Source: Parabacteroides sp. (GTDB lineage: Bacteria > Bacteroidota > Bacteroidia > Bacteroidales > Tannerellaceae). Taken from it: a stretch of 33,888 bases of DNA. Below the pieces are notes generated by a model, which saw only the letters and a list, made by a program, of their open reading frames with translations, was not told the origin of the DNA and made no database searches. The translations under genes were made by a program, and so were the position numbers. Location: positions 1 through 33,888 of the forward strand of contig JAJPZM010000066.1 in the NCBI GenBank assembly GCA_021204335.1, written 5' to 3'. Shown here one piece after another: positions 16,090 through 24,378 of this stretch (positions within the stretch are counted from its first letter, which is position 1; each line of letters starts with the position of its first letter).

Positions 16090-19000
16090 ATGAACAAGAA
16101 ACTTATTCTTTCCTTGCTCGCTTTAGCCGGTGTCCCTGCCTTACTAATGGCAGCGGATGATGCACGCCTGTTGCGCTTCCCGGCTACAAATGGAAACGAG
16201 ATTGTATTCTCGTATGCGGGCGATTTGTATAAAGTTCCTGTAAATGGAGGAGAAGCACAGCGATTAACTTCGCATGTAGGCTACGAAATGTTTCCACGAT
16301 TCTCCCCTGATGGAAAAACAATTGCCTTTACCGGGCAGTATGATGGTAATACCGAAGTATTTACCATGCCTTCAACCGGCGGTGAACCTTTGCGCGTAAC
16401 TTATACGGCCACAAACTCACGCGATGACCTGGGCGATCGTATGGGACCCAATAATATTGTCCTGACTTGGACGCCTGATGGCAATAAAATAGTCTATCGC
16501 AACCGCATCAGCACAGGTTTTGACGGAAAACTTTATACGGTAGATAAGGACGGTGGGTTGTCGGAAGTTATTCCATTGCCCGAAGGTGGTTTTTGCAGCT
16601 ATTCGCCCGATGGAAAGCAGTTGGCCTACAATCGTGTAATGCGCGAGTTCCGTACCTGGAAGTATTATAAGGGTGGTATGGCAGACGATGTGTGGATTTA
16701 TAATCCGGAAAAACAATCCGTCGAAAATATAACGAATAATCCGGCACAGGATATTATCCCGATGTGGATCGGTGATGAAATTTTCTACCTTTCCGACCGC
16801 GACCGTACGATGAACATTTTTGTTTATAATACAAAGACGAAGCAGACTACTAAAGTCACTAATTTTACGGAATACGATGTTAAATTCCCCAGTGCAAATG
16901 GCAATACCATTGTATTTGAGAATGGCGGCTACATCTATAAGATGGATGCAACGGCCAAAAAACCGGAAAAGGTGGATATCCGCTTGGCTTCCGATAATAT
17001 ATATGCCCGCAGTGAGATAAAAGACGGTGCCAAATATATCACCGAAGCTAGTATATCTCCTGACGGCGAACGTATTGTGGTAACCTCACGCGGAGAAGTG
17101 TTCAACTTGCCGGTGGATAAAGGAGTAACAAAGAACATCACCCGCTCGCCGGGTCAGCATGACCGCGAGGCATAATGGTCGCCCGACGGAAAGCTGATCG
17201 CTTATATTCTGACGGAACCGGCGAGACGGAATTATATATGCAAGATGCTACGGGTGGTGAACCGGTGCAACTCACAAAGAATAACGATACCTATATCCGT
17301 TCTTTCGAATGGAGTCCCGACTCGAAAACGATTGTTTATACTGACCGTAAGAATCGTATTAATTTGCTGGATATTGCATCTAAGCAAGTCGCTCTGGTTA
17401 TTCAGGATCCGATGGCAGAAATAAGAGATGTCACCTTTTCTCCTGATAGTAAATGGCTGACTTATTCGCGTCCGGCTAGTAATGAGCATAGCATTGTTTA
17501 TGTGTATAATATTGCCGATAAGAAAGAATATCCGGTGACTGATAAATGGTGCGACTCCTCTAATCCTGTATTCAGCAACGACGGTAAATATTTGATATTT
17601 TCTTCCACCCGCGATTTCAATCCGACTTACGGCTCACTCGAATGGAACCATGTTTATAATAATATGAATGGTGTTTATCTGGCTCTGTTATCTCAGGATA
17701 CTCCTTCTCCTTTCCTGGAAAAAGATGCACAAGTAACAGTGAAAGAAGATAAAGCAAAGAAAGAAGAACCGAAGAAAGAGGAAAAGAAAGAAACTGCATC
17801 CGGAGTACCGACCGTAAAAATCGATATCGAAGGTATTTCCGACCGTATCATCCAGCTTCCGCTGGTAGGTTCATACTATTTTAATTTCTATGCGGATGGA
17901 AATAAAGTTTATTATTATACCCGTGGCGGTACAAAAGTGTACGACCTGGATAAACAGAAAGAGGATATCGTAGCCGAAGGCGCATCCATGTCTGTAGCTC
18001 CCGGAAGTAAAAAGGCTCTTTTCTATAAAGGCGAACAACTTTATGTGACCGATATCCCGTCGGGCAAAGTCGATCTGAGCGAAGCTGTCAACCTCTCGAA
18101 TATGAAGATCGCGACCGATTATCCGAAAGAATGGGCGCAAATCTTCGATGAGGCATGGCGCGCTTATCGTGATGGTTTCTATTCGGAAACAATGCATGGG
18201 GTAGACTGGAAAGCAATCAAAGAAAAATATGCCGTACTGCTTCCCTATGTGAAGACTCGTCTCGATTTGAACTATATCATCGGCGAAATGATCGGTGAGT
18301 TGAATTGTGGGCATGCATACGTTAATCCGGGTGAGCTCGATCGTCCTAAACGTATACAGACAGGCTTGCTGGGCGCTGAAATATCCCGAGACAAGAGTGG
18401 TTTCTTCCGTCTGGAAAAGATTCTGCCGGGTGCTTCCTGGAGCAAAGACCTGCGTTCGCCATTGACGGAGCCGGGTATCAATATGAAAGAGGGCGATTAT
18501 GTCGTAGCGATCGACGGTGTTGCTACCAACAGCGTAAAAGATATGTTCTCTTTGTTGGTTGGTAAGGCAAATGTTCCGACGGAACTCACGATTAACAGCA
18601 AGCCGCAACTGGCAGGAGCCCGTAAAGTGGTGATCAGTCCGCTTGCCGATGAATATCCGCTTTATCATTACAATTGGGTGCAGGATAATCTGAAGAAAGT
18701 AGAAAAGGCTAGCAATGGACGGATCGGTTACGTCTATATCCCGGATATGGGTGTAGAAGGTTTGAACGAATTTGCCCGTTATTTCTATCCCCAGTTGGAT
18801 AAGGAAGGTCTGATTATCGACGACCGTGCCAATGGCGGTGGTAATGTCTCTCCGATGATCCTCGAACGTCTTTCCCGCGAACCGTATCGTCTGACTATGC
18901 GTCGTGGTTCCAATCATATCGGAACCGTACCCGATGCTGTGCAAGTCGGTCCGAAAGTCTGCCTGATCAACAAATATTCTGCATCCGACGGCGACCTGTT

Positions 19001-19325
19001 CCCATGGGGCTTCCGTGTACTTGGCTTAGGGAAGCTGATCGGTACTCGTACCTGGGGTGGTATCGTTGGTATCAGTGGTCCGCTGCCTTATATGGATGGC
19101 ACCGATATCCGTGTACCGTTCTTTACCAGCTATGATCCGAAGACCGGCCAGTGGATTATCGAAAACCACGGTGTCGACCCGGATATCCTGATCGACAATG
19201 ATCCGATCAAAGAATGGAACGGTGAAGACCAGCAGCTCGACAGAGCAATCGAAGAGGTAATGAAAGAACTTCAGAACCGTAAGCCGTTGGCTCCGATACC
19301 GGCTCCGAGGGATTTCAGTAAATAA
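16090..19325 (+). CDS. Tricorn-like S41 family peptidase (interrupted)
   Basis: This exported peptidase is expected to degrade oligopeptides. Signal peptide: MNKKLILSLLALAGVPALLMA. The N-terminal half is made of TolB/WD40-like propeller repeats (RFSPDGKTIAFTGQYDG, TWTPDGNKIVYRN, EWSPDSKTIVYTD). A lysine/glutamate-rich linker (KEDKAKKEEPKKEEKKE) precedes the second part. A PDZ domain covers LEKILPGAS...DYVVAIDGVATNSV. The S41 catalytic core has GGGNVSPMI, NKYSASDGDLFPWGF (probable nucleophile Ser) and TWGGIVGISG. Lesions: TAA 17173-17175 in DREA*WSPDG (Gln fits), and one T short at 17207-17208, after which IAY continues as SDGTGETELYM. Repaired length is about 1,080 residues, normal for the family. 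It is followed by a strong terminator. Confidence 0.92.
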
Positions 19326-19387
19326 ATTTGTTTTTCATAGAGCCTCGGATTATCATTGTAGGTGTTGATTCCGGGTGTTAATAGATA

Positions 19388-19437
19388 ATATCACTGGATT
19401 GATAGATAAAACTTATCAATCCGGTGATATTCTTTTT
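19388..19437 (+). terminator. Intrinsic terminator after the protease gene
   Basis: A 17-base arm (ATATCACTGGATTGATA, 19388-19404) pairs with 19414-19430 with one G:T pair and a 9-base loop. TCTTTTT follows on the plus strand. Confidence 0.88.
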
Positions 19438-19496: not shown

Positions 19497-19982
19497 ATGC
19501 GTATAACCTGGGTCTTGTTTCTCTTATTATTAAATGTATGTGCAGCCTCTGCACAACTGCCTGCCATCCAACTAAAGGATATTAATGGCAAAAGTCTGAA
19601 TGTCTCCGAATTGACGAAAAAAGGAAATCCTGTTATTCTTAGCTTCTTCGCTACTTGGTGTAAACCCTGCCAGCGCGAGCTGAATACGATCAGCGAAGTC
19701 TATGAAGATTGGCAGGATGAAACCGGTGTCGAACTGATTGCCGTCTCTATCGACCAGGGACAGGATGTTGCCAAAGTGAAGCCGCTTGTCGATGGAGCAG
19801 GTTGGGATTTTACTGTTTTGCTCGATCCGGGAAACGATCTGAAGCGTGCTATGGGGGTAACTGTCATACCTCATGTCTTTCTGTTGGACGGGCAAGGGAA
19901 TATCGTTTCCAGCCATATCGGATATACCGAAGGTGGCGATGCTGTCCTGATCAAAGAGGTAAGAAAACTGATTAATAAATAA
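19497..19982 (+). CDS. TlpA-type thiol-disulfide oxidoreductase
   Basis: This is a periplasmic thioredoxin-fold protein of 161 residues. Signal peptide: MRITWVLFLLLLNVCAASA. The active site is FFATWCKPCQRE (CxxC), followed by IAVSIDQGQDVAKVKPLV and the cis-proline strand VIPHVFLLDGQGNIV. This is the AhpC/TSA-Redoxin form. It is 6 bp ahead of the DUF6029-like barrel gene and probably in the same operon. Its role is thiol-disulfide exchange on exported proteins; the substrate is unknown. The frame is intact. Confidence 0.93.
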   Translation: MRITWVLFLLLLNVCAASAQLPAIQLKDINGKSLNVSELTKKGNPVILSFFATWCKPCQRELNTISEVYEDWQDETGVELIAVSIDQGQDVAKVKPLVDGAGWDFTVLLDPGNDLKRAMGVTVIPHVFLLDGQGNIVSSHIGYTEGGDAVLIKEVRKLINK

Positions 19983-19988
19983 ATCCGG

Positions 19989-21623
19989 ATGAAAAAGGTT
20001 TTCCTGGTAATAGCGATTTTATTTTTAGTGCATGTAGCCTATGCACAGGAAATACAACCGGTGCCCGACTCCACGCAAATAAAATCTGTTAAGGCACCGA
20101 AAGTACATCTTACCGGAAGCATTCAGTCGGATATCTTGTTTCCGGAAGAAGATAATGCCATAGGAACCGGTTCGTATAAAGATAAAGTGCTGACGAATAC
20201 TTACGTCGATCTGGCATTGTCTGTCGCTAACTACCTGACGGTAGGCGGCCGCTTCGAATATCTGGATCATCCGTTACCCGGCTTCGAGAAATATTTTGCC
20301 GGTTGGGGTGTCCCTTATTTTTATGCCACCGGGCGTTACCGGAATGCGGAGTTGACTGTAGGCGATTTCTATGAGCAATTCGGCAACGGACTGATATTGC
20401 GTACCTACGAAGAACGCAGTTTGGGTGTCGACAACTCCATTCGTGGTGGCCGGCTTATCCTGCATCCATTGAAAGGCGTCCGCCTGAAGGCGCTTGGTGG
20501 CAAGCAACGCCGTTACTGGGAACACAACGACAGCTATCTGTGGGGCGGTGATGCGGAAGTAAATCTGGATCAATGGTTCCATAAGCTCGACGAACAGAAT
20601 GCCCGTTTGTTACTCGGGCTATCCTACGCCGGAAAGCATGAAAAAGAAGAAGATATTTATATCAGCCCAAATGAAAAACTGAATTTGCCTTTAAATATAG
20701 CCGCATTCGATGCCCGCCTGCAATTTCAGAAGAATGGATATAACCTGATGGCGGATTATGCCTGGAAGATAAACGATCCCTCGTTCGATAACCAATACAG
20801 TTATGATCGGGGCAGTGCCCTTTTGCTTTCCGCCTCCTATTCAAAGAAAGGCATGAGTTTCCTGTTGCAGGCAAAGCGGAGTGAGAATATGGCTTTTCGC
20901 AGCTTACGGTCGATGACAGGGATTTCTTCTTTCATCAATTATCTGCCGGCTTTCGCCATGCAACAGACGTATGCATTGCCTGCTTTATATCCATACGCTA
21001 CCCAGGCATTGGGCGAATGGGCTTTTCAGGGGGAAGCGAGTTATAACTTCCGGCGGCATACCGCCTTAGGCGGCAGATACGGGACGCTGGTCAAACTGCA
21101 TGCCTCACATATTCGTGCGCTTTATGATACTCCGGGGCTAGATAATCTGTATTATCAGGATATTAATCTCATATTGGAAAAGAAGCTCAGCCGTTCATGG
21201 AAACTGAATGCCATGTATATGAACCAGCGTTACAATCAGCGGGTTGTCGAGGGACATGCCAATAACGGGGATATGATCCGGTCGAATATCTATGTATTGG
21301 AAGGAAAATACCAGGCAAGCCGTAAAGTTACTTTCCGTGGAGAACTTCAATATCTGAATACGCGTCAGGATGAAGGCGACTGGCTGTTTGCCCTGCTGGA
21401 AGTATCTGTTCTTCCGTCTCTTATGTTTACCGTTTCCGATATGTATAACAGCGGGGAGACCGACCTTCATTATTATATGGCTCCGGCTACTTATTCACGC
21501 AGCTCCCACCGTATCCAGTTGGGGTATGGACGGACGAGGGCGGGATACAGTTGTGCCGGCGGCGTATGCCGGTATGTTCCCGCCAGCAGAGGTTTTCAGT
21601 TGTCCTATAATTTTAATTTCTAG
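19989..21623 (+). CDS. DUF6029-like outer-membrane barrel protein
   Basis: The frame is intact at 544 residues. Signal peptide: MKKVFLVIAILFLVHVAYAQ. The mature protein has alternating aromatic/polar strands throughout (VGDFYEQFGNGLILRTYEER, FQGEASYNFRRHTALGG) and ends in aromatic residues (FQLSYNFNF), which fits an outer-membrane beta barrel. I recognise it as similar to the Bacteroidales DUF6029 family by the GDFYEQFGNGLILRTYEER region; no function is established that I know of. TAG (21621-21623) is its natural stop, 3 bp before the next gene's ATG, so the two are tightly coupled. Confidence 0.8.
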   Translation: MKKVFLVIAILFLVHVAYAQEIQPVPDSTQIKSVKAPKVHLTGSIQSDILFPEEDNAIGTGSYKDKVLTNTYVDLALSVANYLTVGGRFEYLDHPLPGFEKYFAGWGVPYFYATGRYRNAELTVGDFYEQFGNGLILRTYEERSLGVDNSIRGGRLILHPLKGVRLKALGGKQRRYWEHNDSYLWGGDAEVNLDQWFHKLDEQNARLLLGLSYAGKHEKEEDIYISPNEKLNLPLNIAAFDARLQFQKNGYNLMADYAWKINDPSFDNQYSYDRGSALLLSASYSKKGMSFLLQAKRSENMAFRSLRSMTGISSFINYLPAFAMQQTYALPALYPYATQALGEWAFQGEASYNFRRHTALGGRYGTLVKLHASHIRALYDTPGLDNLYYQDINLILEKKLSRSWKLNAMYMNQRYNQRVVEGHANNGDMIRSNIYVLEGKYQASRKVTFRGELQYLNTRQDEGDWLFALLEVSVLPSLMFTVSDMYNSGETDLHYYMAPATYSRSSHRIQLGYGRTRAGYSCAGGVCRYVPASRGFQLSYNFNF

Positions 21624-21626
21624 AAG

Positions 21627-22454
21627 ATGAAAAAGATAAATTTATATAGTCTCCTTACCCTGTTGTTGCTCTTGCTGTTTGGTTGCGACATCATTAATGA
21701 GGATGAGCGCGTTATCCAGACAGATAAATTGCATTTTACCAATAAAGTAGTCCTTCTGGAAGATTTTACAGGCCATAAATGTGTGAATTGTCCGGTTGCG
21801 GCCGAGGAGATTGCCCGTTTGGAGGAATGGTGCGAAGGATATCTGATTGCTGTGAGTATCCATGCGGGCAGTTATGCCAATACTGCCGGTAGTGCCTGGA
21901 AAACAGGTTTCAGAACGGTAGCAGGAGAGGCGTATAACGATTTCTTCAAACCGGACGGTTATCCGGCTGCCATGGTCGACCGCTTCTCTTTGAACGGAAA
22001 AGTAACAAATAATAATGTACCCACCTGGAGTTCGCAGGTAATCGATCGTTTGAGCGGGGAGTCTCCTGTTGAAATAAAACTGGATGCTGCCTGGCAAGCA
22101 GGTATGAGCAAAATAACACTCCATGTATCTGTTGATTTTCTCCGGACAGTCCAGGATGAACTGGCATTGCAGTTGTGGATCATCGAAGATAATATTATGG
22201 ATGCCCAGCTAATGCCCGATAATACGATCAATGCCTCTTACATTCATCGTCACGTATTCCGTGATGCCATAAACGGCATTTGGGGAGATAGCCTGGGAGC
22301 TGATTCGGCAGAAGATTCTTCAATAGAAAGAGAATATGCTTATCAGCCGGCTGTTGCCTGGAAGAAGAACGATTTACAGATCGTAGCCTTCGTGTACGAC
22401 CGGAAATCATACGCTATCCTTCAGGCTGTTAAAGCGGAAATAGAACAGGAATAG
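21627..22454 (+). CDS. Omp28-like lipoprotein with thioredoxin CxxC
   Basis: The frame is intact at 275 residues. A lipoprotein signal (LLTLLLLLLFGCD) places it in a membrane. EDFTGHKCVNCPVAAEEIARL holds a CVNC motif at the start of a thioredoxin-like fold. GYPAAMVDRFSLNGKV and the beta-rich C-terminal half (DELALQLWIIED) follow, as in Omp28 relatives. Its gene starts 3 bp after the DUF6029-like stop and ends in TAG. The Omp28 family is known as outer-membrane-associated in Porphyromonas; a redox role here is inferred from CxxC and the TlpA neighbour. Confidence 0.82.
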   Translation: MKKINLYSLLTLLLLLLFGCDIINEDERVIQTDKLHFTNKVVLLEDFTGHKCVNCPVAAEEIARLEEWCEGYLIAVSIHAGSYANTAGSAWKTGFRTVAGEAYNDFFKPDGYPAAMVDRFSLNGKVTNNNVPTWSSQVIDRLSGESPVEIKLDAAWQAGMSKITLHVSVDFLRTVQDELALQLWIIEDNIMDAQLMPDNTINASYIHRHVFRDAINGIWGDSLGADSAEDSSIEREYAYQPAVAWKKNDLQIVAFVYDRKSYAILQAVKAEIEQE

Positions 22455-22479
22455 TATTAATTATTAAATAGAATGTATC

Positions 22480-23184
22480 ATGATTAGAAAGCTGGTATTG
22501 TTTATATTGCCTGTGTTACTGGGCTGTATGTCGTTCTGGGGGCAGAGTGTGCAATGGGTGTATGGAGATAAACCTGTTGAAGAAGGTGCAGAAATCACTG
22601 TGACGGAATATGATCCGGTAATGGGACAGATGTTGTTGGAAATGGGAATCCACAATAATACTGACAAACAACTGGATGTTTCGGTAAGTAAGGAGATTCA
22701 GGAATTGGCGGAAGGTGGAGGCGTGCAACTCTGTGTCGGTACTACCTGTTACCCGGAAGGTGTTCTCAAATCAGACGAGTTTACCTTAGAGTCTAACGAA
22801 ACGAATACCTCTTTCCATGCCAATTACTTAATCCTGGATGAAAGTAAATATGGAAACAGTACGGTTATTTTCAAAATAACGGCCGGTGAGGAGACTGTTT
22901 CGGTAAAAGTTCATTTCAATTACTCCGGAACTGTTGCTAATGAAAACATCGGTAGGATAAACGGTTGGCAGATCTCTGCTGTAAACGGGTAGGCACTAGT
23001 GAAAGGCGCAGATGTCGGAAATGTATATTGCCAGATAGTAAATATCAATGGAATACCGGTTTACAAACAGTCGCTTCTCTCTGGGAGTGAAATCGTTACG
23101 CCTATACTGGCGGATGGTGTTTATGTGGTTACCCTTTATAAAGAAGGTAAAGTGCTGGCCTCTCAGAAAGTTTCTGTCAGATAA
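22480..23184 (+). CDS. Putative type IX secretion cargo protein (stop before the sorting domain)
   Basis: A signal peptide (MIRKLVLFILPVLLGCMSFWG) is followed by a beta-sandwich-like domain with a Cys pair (VQLCVGTTCYPEG). The frame is then broken by TAG 22990-22992 (SAVNG*ALVKGADVGN; Gln fits). It continues with a typical type IX C-terminal sorting domain, ending GVYVVTLYKEGKVLASQKVSVR. I merge ORFs 22480-22992 and 22999-23184 because they are in the same frame and the second lacks a start of its own. The body family is not recognised. It lies 25 bp after the Omp28-like gene and 19 bp before another sorting-domain protein. Confidence 0.78.
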
Positions 23185-23203
23185 CTCTTTGATAGCATAG
23201 CGT

Positions 23204-24306
23204 ATGAAAAGAATTATACTTTTATTTTTTTTGTATTGCTTTCTTTCTCAGTCTCTCATGCACAGGAGAATGATCTTCCGGCTTTGGAATATCGTCGTGT
23301 TGTGGTCGCTGAGGAGTTAACTGCCACCTGGTGTGGCTACTGTCCGCGTGGAATTGTGGGGATGGCTGATATGAAAGCAAAATACCCGGACTCGTTTATC
23401 GGGATAGCGGTACATGATTACAGTTATAATTATGATCCGATGGGAGTGCGTGGATATGCCGACGGGCTGTACAGGTATTTTACCAGTTTGCCTAAAGTGT
23501 TGGTAAACCGGTAACGATCCGGCGATCCTTTTTACAATCTGGAATCGATGTATAAGCAGGAAATGGCAGAGCCTGTTATTTCTGCCGTAGCTCTTTCGGT
23601 CTCGTATGCCGATGAATCGAAGAATATATTATCGGCTACAATTCAAACGAAGTTTGCTTTTGCCGCCGAAGATGCCAGATATGCTTATGCAGTGGTTGTA
23701 CTTGAGAATGAAGTGAAAGGAACTGCTTCGGGGTATGCTCAAACGAATAATTTTTCGGGAAAGAATGATCCGATAGGGGATTTCGGTTCATTGCCTTCTA
23801 CTGTACCGGCTTCTCAGATGGTTTATCAGGATGTTGCACGTACTATCTTTCCTACATTTGATGGGATGGAGGAAAACCTGCTGTCAAAATTTGAGAAAGA
23901 TGAAGAAATTAGCCTGACATACGATTTGGAAGTCCCCGGAAATGTCGTGAATAAGGATAATATGGAAGTTGTCGTTTTGCTGATCGACAGTTCGACCGGT
24001 GAAATTGTAAATGCAGCTAAAGCATCCGTTTCAGATGAAACAACAACTACTTCAGAGAATGTACGTGTTTCGAATATGGAAGTAACGGTTTATCAGGATG
24101 GTTCGTCAATATTGGTAGATTTAAAAACAGTTTCTTCCGGCAAGTGCTCCGTTGAACTGTATAATATACAGGGCCAGCATCTGGATACGAAACTGGTTCG
24201 CACTAATGGGCCGATTTCATTCGTACCTTCTAACTCGGGTATTTATTTTGTCCGGGTAACAGATGGAAAAGATACGGTAGTGAAGAAGATTGTCTATCAA
24301 CGGTAA
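23204..24306 (+). CDS. Omp28-like / thioredoxin-motif protein with type IX sorting domain (interrupted)
   Basis: From ATG 23204 the signal peptide reads MKRIILLFF and shifts frame at a T8 run (23225-23232); with nine T it continues VLLSFSVSHAQEND. The thioredoxin-like active site is EELTATWCGYCPRGIVGM (CGYC). TAA 23512-23514 interrupts LVNR*RSGDPFYN (Gln fits). The rest is beta-rich (ARYAYAVVVLENEVKG) and ends in a type IX sorting domain (GIYFVRVTDGKDTVVKKIVYQR). The body is similar in plan to the Omp28-like protein two genes upstream. It is the last gene before a strong terminator. Function is inferred as a surface or secreted thiol-active protein. Confidence 0.8.
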
Positions 24307-24337: not shown

Positions 24338-24378
24338 AAGGTTGCATGCTATTTCCTTAAAGCATGCAACCTTTTTAC
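24338..24378 (+). terminator. Strong intrinsic terminator
   Basis: AAGGTTGCATGCT (24338-24350) and AGCATGCAACCTT (24361-24373) form a perfect 13-bp stem with a 10-base loop, followed by a T-run. It closes the envelope-protein operon. Confidence 0.92.

Follow-up and report, generated by a model that had tools for sequence, protein, structure and literature searches.

The window analyzed here is a stretch of 33,888 nucleotides from Parabacteroides sp. (assembly GCA_021204335.1, contig JAJPZM010000066.1, positions 1 to 33,888). Between positions 19497 and 24306 its plus strand carries five genes in head-to-tail order, encoding a TlpA-like oxidoreductase, a DUF6029 β-barrel, an Omp28 lipoprotein (Omp28a), a PorA-family protein, and a second Omp28-family protein (Omp28b), with intergenic gaps of 6, 3, 25, and 19 bp. 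Each of the five families has a conserved cysteine pair. A terminator-like hairpin of 19 pairs (19387..19431, plus strand) divides the cluster from an upstream gene for a tricorn-type protease. A second hairpin, with a perfect 11-bp stem and a 12-nt loop followed by a T-run (24339..24372, plus strand), closes it; this one was spotted by eye, its loop being beyond the limits of our hairpin scanner. A preliminary description of this DNA had reported five head-to-tail genes with short gaps, a single terminator at their end, and the motifs WCKPC in TlpA, CVNC in the Omp28 lipoprotein, and CGYC in the fifth gene, all of which we confirm.

TlpA, the DUF6029 Barrel, and the Omp28a Lipoprotein

The first gene (19497..19982, plus strand) encodes a TlpA/ResA-like periplasmic thiol-disulfide oxidoreductase of 161 amino acids (PF00578, E value 7.9e-22). 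The cysteine codons of its WCKPC motif lie at 19659-19661 and 19668-19670; W54, C55, and C58 are invariant in the family alignment, and WCxxC is kept in 116 of 119 TlpA proteins.

The second gene (19989..21623, plus strand) encodes an outer-membrane β-barrel of 544 amino acids. Its DUF6029-like identity, suggested earlier, is borne out by a full-length match to PF19494 (E value 7e-175, 583 bits, positions 1-538 of 538, above the curated cut-off). The earlier account listed three CxxC proteins and a cysteine pair in gene 4 and passed over the barrel, which also has an invariant pair, CAGGVC (C522 and C527; codons 21552-21554 and 21567-21569). The corresponding CxGG(V/I)C is present in all 130 DUF6029 homologs. 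Eighty of these loci were gathered by patterns, one of which overlaps the cysteine motif, and we therefore counted separately the 50 homologs gathered without a cysteine-containing pattern, all of which have it.

An AlphaFold2 model of the barrel (predicted local distance difference test score, 89; predicted template modeling [TM] score, 0.81) has 24 predicted strands, with loops averaging 15 residues on one side and 4.5 on the other. The long set would be the surface loops and the short set the periplasmic turns, as expected for such a barrel, which places CAGGVC, in the last long loop between the final two strands, on the predicted surface side. Three loops on this side are among the most conserved parts of the protein (YEQFGxGxxxRxYEERSLG, a YPYAT loop, and CxGGVCRxVPA), suggesting that this face has a conserved partner. 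In a Pfam scan, DUF6029 shows neither a TonB plug nor a receptor domain. Although the FimD usher heads the Foldseek results, many unrelated barrels follow closely, and we do not claim usher homology. In the literature searched, DUF6029 was met only in a paper on another subject. In one Bacteroidales metagenome-assembled genome (locus L068, 7917-9614), the DUF6029 gene is interrupted by a stop.

The third gene (21627..22454, plus strand) encodes Omp28a, a lipoprotein of 275 amino acids (NF033782, 221 bits against a cut-off of 150). Its lipobox, LFGC, has the cysteine codon at 21684-21686 and is followed by acidic residues. The cysteine codons of CVNCP lie at 21780-21782 and 21789-21791, and CxxC is found in all 120 Omp28a homologs. 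The best fold match of the Omp28a model is HBP35 of P. gingivalis (5Y1A, E value 1.2e-12), and the third is an Omp28 domain structure, 2R2C. A selenocysteine relative of Omp28 is catalogued as NCBI family NF045500.

Gene 4 Is a PorA Homolog and Gene 5 Is Related to HBP35

The fourth gene (22480..23184, plus strand) combines an N-terminal domain containing C-x4-C with a C-terminal sorting domain of the type IX secretion system (T9SS). A family profile (A7) built from 17 gene-4 homologs matches the N-domain of PorA (PDB 6KJK, E value 4.9e-7) with both cysteines aligned, whereas single-sequence PDB searches with the homologs from L018 and L111 do not find 6KJK. The gene itself matches an N-domain profile, A8, at 1.9e-36, and exactly two columns are 100% cysteine in an alignment of 88 PorA-like proteins. 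A match to PF00107 (0.003, under the cut-off) was taken as chance. The two features reported for this gene, a cysteine pair (LCVGTTC, codons 22732-22734 and 22747-22749) and a sorting domain (TIGR04183, 25.4 bits against a cut-off of 23), are both present. Gene 4 is not, however, a single open reading frame: an in-frame TAG (22990..22992, plus strand) precedes the sorting domain, whereas the gene of L018 is intact. Elsewhere in the family, the PorA-like proteins at L054 (3670-4758) and L089 (10399-11538) have the C-x4-C motif in two tandem copies.

In P. gingivalis, PorA is PGN_0123/PG2172 and Omp28 is PG2173 (PMC9722745, PMC7712824); the two locus tags are consecutive, which fits the order in the window. 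Locus L111 reads exactly TlpA-DUF6029-Omp28-PorA, so PG2174 and PG2175 would be DUF6029 and TlpA. P. gingivalis PorA has the same architecture as gene 4, an N-domain with the same cysteine pair plus a sorting domain, but gene 4 is interrupted in this assembly. PorA is required for full T9SS expression through PorXY-SigP and is found on the surface even in T9SS mutants; its signal to the inner-membrane kinase PorY must, according to the authors, be passed on by other factors (PMC7712824). It is also the second most abundant partner of Sov, in a PorA-PorV-Sov complex (PMC8754138). The papers searched do not connect PorA with TlpA, with DUF6029, or with its own cysteines.

The fifth gene (23204..24306, plus strand), Omp28b, encodes a signal peptide, a thioredoxin-like CGYC motif (codons 23332-23334 and 23341-23343), an Omp28 domain (PF11551, 35.4 bits against a cut-off of 34.9), and a T9SS sorting domain (TIGR04183, 41.3 bits). 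The CGYC and sorting domain had been noted before; the membership of the Omp28 family had been missed, and the single open frame does not stand. Omp28b is interrupted twice, by a T8 tract in the signal-peptide codons (23225..23232, plus strand), after which the frame is not continuous with the ATG at 23204, and by an in-frame TAA (23512..23514, plus strand) that is a sense codon in L018. CGYC, the Omp28 domain, and the sorting domain are thus divided over broken frames in the window and lie in one open frame in G018. A T8 tract in the signal peptide of a surface protein could, by slippage, switch the gene on and off.

The L018 ortholog of Omp28b matches HBP35 (5Y1A, E value 4e-5). The parts that are divided over broken frames in the window, a thioredoxin-like CxxC, an Omp28 domain, and a T9SS sorting domain, are also those of HBP35 (PG0616), which does not adjoin the PG2172-PG2173 pair. 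Recombinant HBP35 reduces insulin, an activity lost once C48 and C51 are replaced; the protein also binds hemin, and growth of hbp35 mutants is poor when hemin is lacking (PMC2907840). High-fat diet has been tied to an HBP35-like surface thioredoxin of Muribaculaceae in a preprint that does not describe the module.

In the congener G018 (locus L018), all five genes are open, with 68-88% identity to those of the window and a substitution pattern that is purifying for all five. The ratios of non-synonymous to synonymous substitution (dN/dS) against G018 in genes 4 and 5 are 0.10 and 0.06 before the stops and 0.34 and 0.20 after them, the two segments being different domain types. The upstream tricorn-type protease gene (16090-19325), a single frame of 1080 codons in G018, is split here by a 1-bp deletion near 17207, which suggests indel errors in the assembly or decay. 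A second PorU copy in this genome (contig C21, 4624-7976) forms two overlapping frames, with another frameshift. Because these genes are also broken, sequencing error and recent decay are equally likely for genes 4 and 5. The genome otherwise encodes PorU (contig C174), SprA (contig C370), and 28 sorting-domain matches.

Synteny and Co-occurrence across Bacteroidia

The preliminary description called for a neighborhood survey. Over 130 loci from many families of the class Bacteroidia, the order TlpA-DUF6029-Omp28 is conserved: of 123 testable loci, 115 have TlpA immediately before DUF6029, and of 128, 119 have Omp28 immediately after it. Among class-level loci gathered by profile rather than by neighborhood, the corresponding counts are 31 and 32 of 40. 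This class-wide synteny rules out three ordinary neighbors. In distant members of the class (L113, 4829-6006; L128, 9061-10255), genes for a small outer-membrane barrel (PF13568) and a flavoprotein (PF02441, about 190 amino acids) often come next after the triad.

DUF6029 has 209 matches in the class survey, this genome included, and of these genomes all but G090 also have the sortase PorU. We surveyed PorA with the N-domain-only profile A8, since an earlier profile, SortA, also matched the sorting domains of unrelated cargo. Across 296 class genomes, 136 have both PorA and DUF6029, 2 PorA only, 72 DUF6029 only, and 86 neither; the T9SS-positive genomes divide into 135, 2, 72, and 66. The association is more than linkage, as the two genes are on different contigs in 38 of 119 genomes, a number raised by fragmented assemblies. 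Nine relatives have both and none has PorA only. Within the genus of the window, PorA is present in exactly those two genomes that have a full DUF6029, and the remaining 34 genomes searched, nearly all T9SS positive, have neither apart from one 45-residue match. The within-genus contrasts in g1, g27 (G090 against G128), and g29 (G238 against G214) point in the same direction. Association of the module components is strongly supported, and PorA belongs to the module more than to the T9SS.

Gene Fusions and Genomes without PorU

Omp28a is fused to PorA at L156, L159, and L160. In G420 and G482 the product is one lipoprotein, Omp28a followed by a terminal PorA domain without a sorting domain (E value about 1e-18), and in G365 the two are likewise joined (5e-5); G490 has an Omp28a extension with a cysteine pair, on which the PorA profile falls below threshold. 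The fusions without a sorting domain lie after DUF6029. A triple fusion, Omp28a-PorA-Omp28b, occurs at L109 (3393-5459, minus strand) and L155 (6381-8495, plus strand), in two genomes of one genus, G090 and G422, as one lipoprotein some 700 residues long. The PorA part of the G422 protein is weak alone (8.5e-4), but as a whole this protein shares 72% identity with its G090 counterpart.

G090 lacks PorU, SprA, and sorting domains alike, and G422 lacks PorU. Without the secretion system, the surface partners are retained, tied to the lipoprotein. Because the fusions are kept where PorU is absent, they are strong evidence for joint action of Omp28a, PorA, and Omp28b and for a separate job of the module. 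A module serving only the T9SS is ruled out, being kept in G090 without a T9SS and in G422 without PorU, and the earlier, tentative suggestion that the system folds or loads secreted thiol proteins finds no support in our analysis.

DsbD in the Module Operon of Two Lineages

DsbD is the usual route by which thiol electrons of the cytoplasm enter the periplasm. At locus L026 (genome G056), a DsbD gene directly follows all five module genes, and at L024 (G055), it directly follows TlpA-DUF6029-Omp28a; it does not adjoin the cluster of the window. The presence of DsbD in the module operon of these two lineages favors a reductive direction.

A Corresponding Locus in Trypsin-Degrading Paraprevotella

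In Paraprevotella, the protein 00502, encoded in locus 00502-00509, recruits trypsin and sets off its self-degradation (PMC9477747). Locus L055 of P. xylaniphila, where an Omp28 protein of 1260 residues with GQDCPNCP adjoins TlpA-DUF6029-Omp28a-PorA and another probable secreted protein, corresponds to it. Like Omp28b, 00502 is an Omp28-related T9SS protein, but its homolog has about 900 extra N-terminal residues; the proteins of the window and G018 are only about 365 amino acids long, and the long N-terminal WD40/Ig region of 00502 is absent from them. The triad adjoins an Omp28b in two of the named trypsin degraders, P. rara (Xylanibacter rarus, L030) and P. muris (Palleniella muris, L066). 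P. rara was scored as lacking 00503-00508 under the identity cut-offs of the paper, in which the words thioredoxin and disulfide do not appear (PMC9477747).

Discussion

We propose, with moderate confidence, that the cluster encodes an outer-membrane thiol-redox module that is fed reductively, docked on DUF6029, and acts on PorA and Omp28b. DsbD would probably keep periplasmic TlpA reduced, and TlpA would pass dithiol electrons toward the outer membrane. There the 24-stranded barrel would form the core, its surface loops, including the CxGGVC dithiol, docking thioredoxin-fold Omp28a, which in turn would swap disulfides with its surface partners. The cysteine pair of PorA could serve as a redox switch or receptor, and Omp28b could be a surface thioredoxin of the HBP35/00502 type. 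A thiol-redox system reaching from the periplasm over the outer membrane to the surface had been suggested from the sequence before, and the cysteine pairs, synteny, co-occurrence, fusions, and DsbD all speak for it. The electron path is the part that we infer: that it runs reductively, that thiol equivalents cross the barrel or pass through it, and that PorA reports redox state. A fuller version, in which a trans-outer-membrane dithiol relay from DsbD through TlpA, DUF6029, and Omp28a to PorA and Omp28b sets the redox state of the surface of Bacteroidota, informs the T9SS via PorA, and, in species of the gut, opens host disulfide proteins, trypsin among them, by reduction, appears unlikely.

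Several observations weigh against a reductively fed module. The weakest step is the membrane crossing, since the only invariant cysteines of the barrel are predicted to lie on the surface side; TlpA or an Omp28 domain might enter the wide barrel, small thiols might pass through it, or TlpA might act before export. DsbD is adjacent in only two lineages and nearby in a third locus, L079. With genes 4 and 5 broken in the window, this strain may lack a working full module. The Fisher p-values of the PorA-DUF6029 survey (2e-27 and 9e-22) ignore phylogeny, and the 72 DUF6029-positive genomes without detected PorA have either a divergent PorA or none. Finally, P. clara 00503-00508, which probably include module genes, are dispensable for trypsin degradation in vitro (PMC9477747). 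The assay medium contained 0.5 g/l cysteine-HCl (PMC9477747), and this dispensability could be reconciled with a redox role because external cysteine might replace the internal electron supply and so mask a need for the neighboring genes.

A different role for the barrel would be to carry Omp28a and PorA to the surface independently of the T9SS, as a translocon or assembly factor, with TlpA merely maintaining the cysteine state during export. This would account for the arrival of PorA on the surface in T9SS mutants, and it is consistent with the Omp28a-PorA fusions that follow DUF6029 without a sorting domain, with the unusual conservation of the surface-side loops, and with FimD, an usher pore, as the best fold match of the barrel, PorA-N being FimH-like. 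The FimD match is weak, however (TM score about 0.5, 10% identity), with MOMP, BtuB, and OprC scoring nearly as high; no plug, chaperone, or usher accessory domains are seen, and the invariant CxGGVC would be left unexplained. We consider a translocon unlikely.

The cysteine pairs might alternatively be disulfides that stabilize surface proteins against host proteases, with TlpA as generic quality control. Exposed proteins are often disulfide bonded, and short C-x4-C loops could be structural. Such an oxidative or structural role is nonetheless distinctly unlikely, given the thioredoxin-type CxxC of both Omp28a and Omp28b, a motif with which HBP35 is catalytically active (PMC2907840), the catalogued selenoprotein family of Omp28, and the class-wide linkage to TlpA and DsbD in two operons, which point to thiol exchange. 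The hemin binding of HBP35 and the poor growth of its mutants without hemin also raise the idea of metal, heme, or small-thiol handling, with the barrel moving a thiol compound or heme and the lipoprotein as its surface binding partner. This we regard as very improbable: by Pfam, DUF6029 has neither a TonB plug nor a receptor domain, what is conserved in all five proteins is a cysteine pair and not heme ligands, and DUF6029 co-occurs with PorA instead of a TonB receptor.

The preliminary description knew of no described function for this combination, which is right only in part, as gene 4 is a PorA homolog and gene 5 is related to HBP35 and 00502. Our literature search found no paper joining TlpA, disulfides, the outer membrane, and type IX secretion in Bacteroidetes. 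The proposed thiol-redox module would share the logic of a DsbD plus a TlpA/ResA-type oxidoreductase with the DsbD-driven pathways DsbD-DsbC, CcdA-ResA, and ScsB-ScsC. Those pathways stop in the periplasm, whereas four of the five module components sit at the outer membrane or farther out.

For PorA-to-PorY signaling, Omp28a, DUF6029, and TlpA become concrete candidate mediators that co-occur class-wide and are in some cases fused to PorA, and the conserved cysteine pair offers a testable chemistry for the signal. The comparison likewise suggests that 00502, which degrades trypsin, has a thioredoxin-type role. If the proposal is correct, thiol redox power would be delivered to the cell surface, extending DsbD systems past the periplasm.

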